Positions 3,075 through 5,151 of a stretch of 6,414 nucleotides of DNA are shown here, piece after piece. Origin of the DNA: a bacterium. Its GTDB lineage: Bacteria > JAJVIF01 > JAGGVT01. The stretch is from positions 1 through 6,414 of the forward strand of contig JAGGVT010000151.1 in assembly GCA_021157815.1 (NCBI GenBank), in the 5' to 3' direction. The notes below the pieces were generated by a model. It did not search any database and was not told the DNA's origin. It saw only the letters and a list, made by a program, of their open reading frames with translations. Positions within the stretch are counted from its first letter, which is position 1. Every line of letters begins with the position of its first letter. The translations under genes were made by a program, and so were the position numbers.

Positions 3075-3740
3075 ATGGCGATAATGTCAAAAACCGCCTT
3101 CACAGAATCATTCAAACAGGCGTGCGATATCCTAAGCGTGGAATTATCCCCGGATCAAATTGAAAAGTGCATTACGCACTATAATCTGTTGCTAAAATTC
3201 AATCAGGTGGTTAATCTTACCGCTTTGGATACTCCTGAGGATATCGCATTTAAACTATTCTCCGATTCTCTGTTCCCGCTGCGATTCATTAATGAAATGG
3301 AAAATGTCAAAATCCTCGATACCGGCCCGGGGGGTGGATTCCCATCTATCCCCCTGCGTATCCTTGCAAACGAAAGCATCTCGATTACTTTGGTCGAAAG
3401 ACGGGAAAAAGTGGTTTTTTATCTTGAGGAGTTAATTTCAACATTAGCACTTCCGAATATCAATGTCGTAAAAGCGCGACTTGAGGATTTGCGGGATAGT
3501 TCTGATTTCGCCTTCGCATTCCAAATGGCTGTGAATAAAGCGACTTTTCCTGATGATGTCTTCCTCGATAAAGTTAGCCCTTTTATTCAAGCAGGAGGAT
3601 TTGCCCTTCACTGGATATCATTCCCATCCCCAAAGACTAAAATCCCCGACCCATGGCAGCATGAAATGGAGATTTATCCCGCGATAAACGATCCACGATT
3701 CCCCGGATTTGTCGCTGTTTACAAAAAACATTCCGATTGA
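3075..3740 (+). CDS. rsmG: 16S rRNA (guanine-N7) methyltransferase RsmG (GidB)
   Basis: S-adenosylmethionine-dependent enzyme that methylates N7 of G527 (E. coli numbering) in the 530 loop of 16S rRNA. At 221 residues it is near the family's usual 205-240. Recognisable blocks are FNQVVNLTA (42-50), the SAM-binding glycine motif LDTGPGGGFPSIPL (81-94), the acidic E108 ending the next strand in LVERREKVVFYLEEL, NINVVKARLED (128-138), and a C-terminal FVAVYKK strand. Two positions depart from the common pattern: GFPG is GFPS, and the usual SRA tripeptide is NKA (about residues 153-155). The first ATG (3075) directly abuts a run of G. The second, at 3084, has that GGGGG nine bases upstream, so the protein may start at residue 4 (MSKTAF). 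The neighbouring parAB genes are a common context for rsmG. Confidence 0.9.
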   Translation: MAIMSKTAFTESFKQACDILSVELSPDQIEKCITHYNLLLKFNQVVNLTALDTPEDIAFKLFSDSLFPLRFINEMENVKILDTGPGGGFPSIPLRILANESISITLVERREKVVFYLEELISTLALPNINVVKARLEDLRDSSDFAFAFQMAVNKATFPDDVFLDKVSPFIQAGGFALHWISFPSPKTKIPDPWQHEMEIYPAINDPRFPGFVAVYKKHSD

Positions 3741-3910: not shown

Positions 3911-4145
3911 GTCATTCCCGCGAAAGGGATTGTTGAAAAAGCCTATTATATCCCAGACCGTAGGGGCAACTCTCCGTGGTTGCCCTGTATTTATGCCAAT
4001 ATTTAGGGTAGGCACAGAGACTTACCCCCTACATTCAGCCCTTTTTCAACAGCCCCGAAAGCGGGAATCCATTTTTCTTCTGATTCAATCCTGTGCGATA
4101 GTCTGAATAAAGAAATAATTGGATTCCCGCTTTCGCGGGAATGAC
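3911..4145. repeat. Pair of inverted palindromic repeats (GTCATTC...GAATCC family), left copy interrupted
   Basis: The right copy, 4121-4145, is intact on the minus strand. It contains the hairpin ATTCCCGC / GAAA loop / GCGGGAAT (8-bp stem at 4123-4130 and 4135-4142), bounded by GTC and CC. The left copy is split: its first part is 3911-3926 (GTCATTCCCGCGAAAG) and its remainder resumes at 4062-4070 after an insertion. Joined, the two left pieces equal the right copy over all 25 positions. The copies face each other across 50 bp (4071-4120). No T run follows the stem, so it is not an obvious intrinsic terminator. The layout, two inverted copies around a short spacer, matches the element at 6149-6223. 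Confidence 0.85.
3927..4055. mobile_element. 129-bp MITE-like insertion with target-site duplication
   Basis: Terminal inverted repeats are GGATTGTTGAAAAAG (3927-3941) and, on the minus strand, GGGCTGTTGAAAAAG (4041-4055), 13 of 15 matching. The insertion is flanked by the direct duplication CGAAAG (3921-3926 and 4056-4061). Removing the insertion plus one CGAAAG restores the palindromic repeat exactly as in the intact copy at 4121-4145. Internal structure includes a GGGCAAC / GTTGCCC hairpin (3964-3970, 3979-3985) and GTAGGGG (3960-3966) pairing with CCCCTAC (4026-4032). There is no open frame of useful length, so any mobilisation would need a transposase encoded elsewhere. Confidence 0.8.
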
Positions 4146-4380: not shown

Positions 4381-5151
4381 ATGCAGGCAAGAATTATCTC
4401 GATAGCGAATCAAAAGGGCGGTGTCGGCAAAACGACGACTGCTATTTCCCTTGCCGCTGTATTGGCGGAACACGGCAAGCAAACTTTGCTTTGCGACCTT
4501 GACCCGCAGGCGCATGCGACAATCGGGCTTGGTTATCAGAAAAACCAGGCGCAAAATTCAATCAGCGAGGTTCTTCTGGACGGCGTTCCCGCATCCGATG
4601 CGCTTTTTAAGACAAGAATAGAAAACCTTTTTCTCCTGCCGGCGAATTCAAACGCGCTTGGAATCGAGGTGCAGTTGATAGATGCCGAAAACCGCGAGAC
4701 CATTCTCAAACGCTCACTTGATTCGATTCGTTATAAGTATGATTACATTCTTCTCGATTGTCCGCCGTCGCTCGGTTTTCTGACAGTGAATGCGCTCACG
4801 GCATCCGATTCAGTGCTGATACCCATGCAGTGCGAGTTCCTTGCTATGGAGGGGCTTGTCCAGCTGCTGAATACAATCGCGCATGTGCAGAAATCGCTGA
4901 ATCCATCGCTGGGAATCGAGGGAATAGTGTTGACTATGCATGACGCGCGGACTAAACTTTCGCGTGAGGTTGAGACGGAGATTAGACAGTATTTCGAGGG
5001 ACGAATTAGAGTTTTCGAATCGGTGATACCGCGGAGCATCAAATTAAGCGAGGCGCCGTCGCATGGTGTCCCGATTACACAATACGCAAATCTCACTGCC
5101 GGGGCGTGGTCATACACGAACCTTGGTGAGGAGTTGATGGGCATTGAGTAA
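4381..5151 (+). CDS. parA: Chromosome-partitioning ATPase ParA (Soj type)
   Basis: Deviant Walker A ATPase that binds nucleoid DNA non-specifically as an ATP dimer and moves ParB-parS complexes toward opposite cell halves. At 256 residues it lacks the N-terminal helix-turn-helix of plasmid P1/F-type ParA and fits the short chromosomal type. Walker A is KGGVGKTTT (12-20) with the signature lysine K12 and the catalytic-loop K17. The switch motif is CDLDPQAHAT (38-47), and Walker B is YILLDCPPSLG (122-132) with D126. The C-terminal VIPRSIKLSEAPSHG block is characteristic of chromosomal ParA. The ATG at 4381 is the only sensible start; an in-frame TAG lies seven codons upstream. It has no visible Shine-Dalgarno sequence and lies just after a palindrome. 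It overlaps parB by 8 nt. Confidence 0.97.
   Translation: MQARIISIANQKGGVGKTTTAISLAAVLAEHGKQTLLCDLDPQAHATIGLGYQKNQAQNSISEVLLDGVPASDALFKTRIENLFLLPANSNALGIEVQLIDAENRETILKRSLDSIRYKYDYILLDCPPSLGFLTVNALTASDSVLIPMQCEFLAMEGLVQLLNTIAHVQKSLNPSLGIEGIVLTMHDARTKLSREVETEIRQYFEGRIRVFESVIPRSIKLSEAPSHGVPITQYANLTAGAWSYTNLGEELMGIE

Follow-up and report, generated by a model that had tools for sequence, protein, structure and literature searches.

The 129-bp gene-less element that interrupts a REP in this window is most probably one copy of an IS1182-related MITE that inserts at the hairpin apices, or dyads, of REPs using a transposase provided in trans. The genome holds the element in many copies with common ends, placed in both orientations at palindrome centers and flanked by target duplications, along with decayed insertion sequences that carry the same ends. 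The window (the whole stretch of 6,414 nucleotides that was analyzed) makes up contig C158 in a genome of 3.2 Mb and 221 contigs. A head-to-head REP pair is located between rsmG (3075-3740) and parA (4381-5151); its left member, with a TGTC tag, is split at the loop by 129 bp with CGAAAG flanks, and its right member, with a CGTC tag, is intact. The features are as follows.

3911..3926, + strand: left half of the split REP, with the GTC tag, stem ATTCCCGC, loop GAAA and G; matches the intact copy at 4120-4145 exactly
3921..3926, + strand: left copy of the CGAAAG target duplication, the loop plus its closing C:G pair
3927..4055, + strand: MITE, 129 bp
3927..3941, + strand: left terminal inverted repeat, GGATTGTTGAAAAAG, 13/15 match to the right end
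4041..4055, - strand: right terminal inverted repeat, read as GGGCTGTTGAAAAAG
4056..4061, + strand: right copy of the CGAAAG target duplication
4056..4071, + strand: right half of the split REP, made up of CGAAAGCGGGAAT and the CCA tail
4120..4145, - strand: intact inverted REP, partner of the split REP in the head-to-head dimer, used as the reference for the empty site

Joining the flanks with 3927-4055 and one CGAAAG removed gives GTCATTCCCGCGAAAGCGGGAATCCA, which matches the reverse complement of 4120-4145 without a mismatch over 26 bp; the original prediction had reconstructed the same empty site and counted 25 positions. Its reading of the element ends as inverted repeats agreeing at 13 of 15 positions (GGATTGTTGAAAAAG versus GGGCTGTTGAAAAAG) is borne out, as is the absence of a gene: the open reading frames of at least 60 amino acids over the element are small, overlap one another on both strands, run through the repeats, and look spurious. 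The window element thus has the size (70-300 bp), the terminal inverted repeats, and the lack of coding capacity of a MITE, as well as multiple copies with target duplications. Its interior (3960-4027) contains inverted repeats of its own around GTAGGGG...CCCCTAC. As single-stranded DNA, the interrupted unit has a folding z of -5.2 relative to shuffles, and in the predicted fold the REP arms are still paired at the base with the element ends paired above them.

A 166-bp query finds many copies in the same genome. The paired-end pattern occurs in 38 exact copies (0 in the reversed control), and exact TGTTGAAAAAG ends number 214 (3 in the reversed control). Pairing element ends in 1.49 Mb of genome stretches, with one mismatch tolerated per end, yields 85 elements of 60-650 bp; pairs of odd length, such as those at L152:179 and L157:5515, may be false, and the 118-123 bp core class is clean, with 52 copies having both flanks in the 1.49 Mb. 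For comparison, we placed 129-bp gaps at random in the same genome. Matching hairpin arms (at least 6 of 7 positions) surround 44/52 core copies and 1.8% of random sites, arms matching at all 7 positions surround 34/52 and 0.11%, and a duplication is present in 41/52 and 1.4%. Habitual targeting of palindromes, which the original prediction had left open, is therefore what these copies display, and its proposal that a small nonautonomous element had transposed into a hairpin apex is supported by both the empty-site match and dozens of further copies in either orientation. Copies without a duplication, which it had regarded as evidence against the proposal, do occur, with about a fifth lacking a scored one. 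Because random gaps are rarely comparable and the same core recurs 38 times with exact ends, chance is excluded as the origin of the arrangement in the window.

Most insertions fall in two REP classes. The class A target, GTCATTCCCGC-GAAA-GCGGGAATCCA, fits the description of CGTC-1 REPs (CGTC tag, 8-bp stem, 4-nt loop, CCA tail, and head-to-head dimers; PMC3733652). Members of that group, including dRS3 of Neisseria, have the stem ATTCCCGC, a GAAA loop, a CCA tail, and a head-to-head dimer arrangement (PMC3733652), and the target palindrome in the window shares all four, but here many of the repeats hold the element. The class C/D target is GTGCTGCGGGCATCCTGCCTGCATC, which also forms dimers, and further target palindromes have halves such as GGAACACGGACAGCCTTG, GGAGCGCCGCAGTAGCC, GGGAGCGCTGGCATCTTG, and CACCATGCTTTAG. 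At the 19 sites outside the two main classes, a duplication is common to both flanks in 5 (0.7 on average in shuffled pairs; P = 0.001), and arm matching shows a modest excess (8 vs. 4.3 shuffled; P = 0.04). For the 15 copies in the main size class that lie outside class A, arm matching does not leave the range seen on shuffling, since their targets are similar to one another.

In many copies the match to the query extends over 1-166 and so takes in the palindrome halves, as would be expected if the interrupted REP (half, core, half) were a single composite repeat spreading as a whole, with no insertion at each site. We consider this very improbable. Within the class A REP, the core is found in both orientations (8 vs. 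12), which argues against movement of the interrupted REP as a unit, and it also occupies several other palindromes, each with its own duplication. Moreover, 54 class A REPs are intact in the stretches read, against 25 split by one size class of the element.

Other repeats and genes of related kinds are present as well. A second element of ~190 bp, with ends CTGTCGG[A/G]AAAGG, is also found at the class A REP loop (L123:14002, L128:8828, L150:16711, and L205:6933), and elsewhere its ends adjoin palindrome-like arms such as GCAGAGGG and CACCATGCT. Another hairpin repeat, of 32 bp (CCCACAAATCACAAAAAGACGTGATGTGTGGG), is located at L123:15635-15666 and in similar places in L115-L154, with its core in 18 copies, often near CCCATAAAGCC hairpins. 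Nine Y1_Tnp (RAYT-like) matches occur in the genome (G000; contigs C65, C216, C189, C151, C56, C83, C182, C85, and C84), and none of the eight loci inspected carries a class A REP.

We extended the comparison to three other genomes of the same phylum. Two of them (G001 and G003), from another family in the same class, have the same ends on elements whose interiors differ, with 16 exact GGGCTGTTGAAAAAG ends in G001 and 10 in G003; among 58 relatives, the paired-end pattern is found in G003 alone. Split palindromes with matching arms in these relatives have 7-bp CTGGAAG duplications (L259, L261, and L264), and CTGACG is duplicated between matching arms at L253. Some end pairs in the two genomes have no duplication.

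The original prediction gave the target duplication as 6 bp, which holds for the window and for class A REPs; in the second main class it measures 7 bp, and at some other sites ~8 bp. Of 49 scored duplications, 34 are of 6 bp, 12 of 7 bp, and 3 of 8 bp. The size of the duplication depends on the target, being 6 bp in class A, 7 bp in class C/D, and 8 bp at some further sites, with its center at the dyad; an identical 121-bp element is flanked by 6 bp in one REP class and by 7 bp in the other. At L129:8000, in class A, the duplication is readable as 8 bp, GCGAAAGC, and is still symmetric. If the element end is set at GGGGC, the duplication can instead be read as the bare loop of 4, 5, or 6 nt; the loop-only and loop-plus-pair readings are hard to separate because the closing C:G pair is nearly invariant.

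In 40/49 scored duplications, both copies have C as the first base and G as the last, and two REP classes take most insertions, as would follow if the enzyme preferred the sequence C-N(4-6)-G where the surroundings are symmetric and rich in G+C, and hit REPs only for being abundant and tolerated between genes. Such a motif at a palindrome center looks the same, in sequence alone, as recognition of shape. We nonetheless think sequence targeting the less likely account, though a serious rival, as duplication length tracks the hairpin and remains dyad-centered across unrelated sequences, and elements in relatives of another family behave likewise in other palindromes. The same behavior in several unrelated hairpins suggests that the enzyme locates its targets by shape and not by sequence. 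A stronger version, in which targets would be chosen by shape only and strands joined on either side of the loop in an extruded hairpin, making the loop itself the duplicated piece, is a serious possibility to which we give somewhat less than even credence.

About ten copies have an arm and loop on either side in inverted order and no duplication; among those flagged, L132:5964 is doubtful, and L121 and L188 resemble these copies except for shifted loops. The duplication-free copies in classes A and C/D have only the outer arms of the REP dimer. Intact dimers have outer arms GTCATTCCC and inner arms TGGATTCCC, a makeup by which loss of the dimer middle explains the duplication-free copies; two outer-type arms occur in only 1 of the 54 intact class A REPs. 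The copies in the two main classes are consistent with later or simultaneous loss of the dimer middle, which could have been a single event or the outcome of recombination between two insertions. Inversion between two copies is an unlikely source, as inner-arm pairs are absent. Single elements flanked by different palindromes (L173, L161:10284, and L117:6504) suggest recombination between copies or assembly error, and some of the mixed flanks may be assembly errors, the assembly being fragmented.

The inverted-order copies without a duplication and their outer arms could also reflect hairpin replacement, in which stems are joined blunt and the apex is lost with no duplication, as by IS1272 of the IS1182 family, which targets and removes hairpins (PMC5678879, PMC4923244). 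We regard this as improbable, even for the duplication-free copies. With a duplication in 41/52 copies, deletion of the apex without duplication could apply only to a minority, and in class A the duplication-free junctions coincide or nearly coincide with those of the other copies, an outcome that two insertions followed by recombination would also give.

The ends of the MITE point to the IS1182 family. A decayed 993-bp element (C90:4772-5764) shares 23 bp with it on the left (GGGCTGTTGAAAAAGCCTATTAT) and 12 bp on the right (GGGCTGTTGAAA) and holds remnants matching NF033551 and PF13751. Together with a second decayed element, on C56, it accounts for IS1182-type transposase remnants matching NF033551, PF05598, and PF13751; the best match for both is NF033551, as fragments below its whole-protein cut-off. 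The full-length insertion sequence with the same ends that the original prediction proposed to look for was not found with an intact transposase in this genome, and only decayed copies, sharing the left end, represent it. If an intact source element were a multicopy repeat, it may be missing from the fragmented assembly.

We rejected three other candidates. The left end of a putative 1.4-kb element (C64:1143-2570; L102) lies within a long reading frame (L102:953-2161), and this TGTTGAAAAAG match is probably a chance end. No MITE-type ends are found near an intact IS1182/IS5-like transposase on C155 (L111) or with a full-length IS1182 transposase in a relative (G001:C4; L221). A contig scan across genomes with a transposase query returned only two matches, both weak and both from Neisseria.

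Judging from the shared ends, we propose that the MITE would be nonautonomous, its GGGCTGTTGAAAAAG ends being those of an IS1182-family insertion sequence, and that a transposase of that family would mobilize it in trans. Insertion would be symmetric about the dyad of hairpin-forming repeats (REPs), with the target probably extruded as a cruciform or single-stranded hairpin, and repair would duplicate the loop and its closing C:G pair, giving 6, 7, or 8 bp according to the hairpin. Being an inverted repeat, the element would lengthen the hairpin on insertion at its dyad rather than destroy it.

Palindromic or hairpin targets have been reported for some IS1182-family members (PMC5678879, PMC4923244), and the MITE shows this family trait. 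Like IS1272/TnSha1 of staphylococci, it targets hairpins of unrelated sequence, and theirs is the transposase family whose remnants share the MITE ends; those elements, however, remove the stem-loop and leave no duplication, whereas the MITE keeps the arms, duplicates the apex, and carries no gene. ISRm22 of Sinorhizobium meliloti inserts at the REP symmetry axis with 6-bp direct repeats, imperfect in some copies, which its authors attribute to recombination (PMC1525189). It resembles the MITE in axis insertion with 6-bp repeats but is autonomous (filed as IS4, Transposase_11), with 10 copies in one REP type, in contrast to at least 38 exact copies in several palindrome classes with duplications of 6-8 bp. 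Bacterial MITEs in general are short and gene-less, with inverted ends, target duplications, and high copy number (PMC3733652, PMC10969869); all of these traits are present here, and placement at palindrome centers sets this element apart. Hairpin targeting and axis insertion are thus already known, with IS1272 and ISRm22 as close precedents. What appears to be new is a gene-less, high-copy element in many palindromes with a target-dependent duplication, a combination that we did not find in the literature searched, which likewise yielded no description of a MITE habitually at palindrome centers.

One suggestive locus thereby becomes a natural experiment: dozens of insertions, in hairpins of several unrelated kinds, allow shape to be weighed against sequence as the cue by which a DDE transposase finds its target. 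If shape-only choice with joining at the loop sides is true, the insertions would supply evidence from nature for the loop-duplicating pathway (c), an alternative in the IS1272 model of Wan et al. (PMC5678879, Fig. 13). Target hairpin repeats that are still able to form a hairpin afterward would also explain how the element could multiply with little harm.
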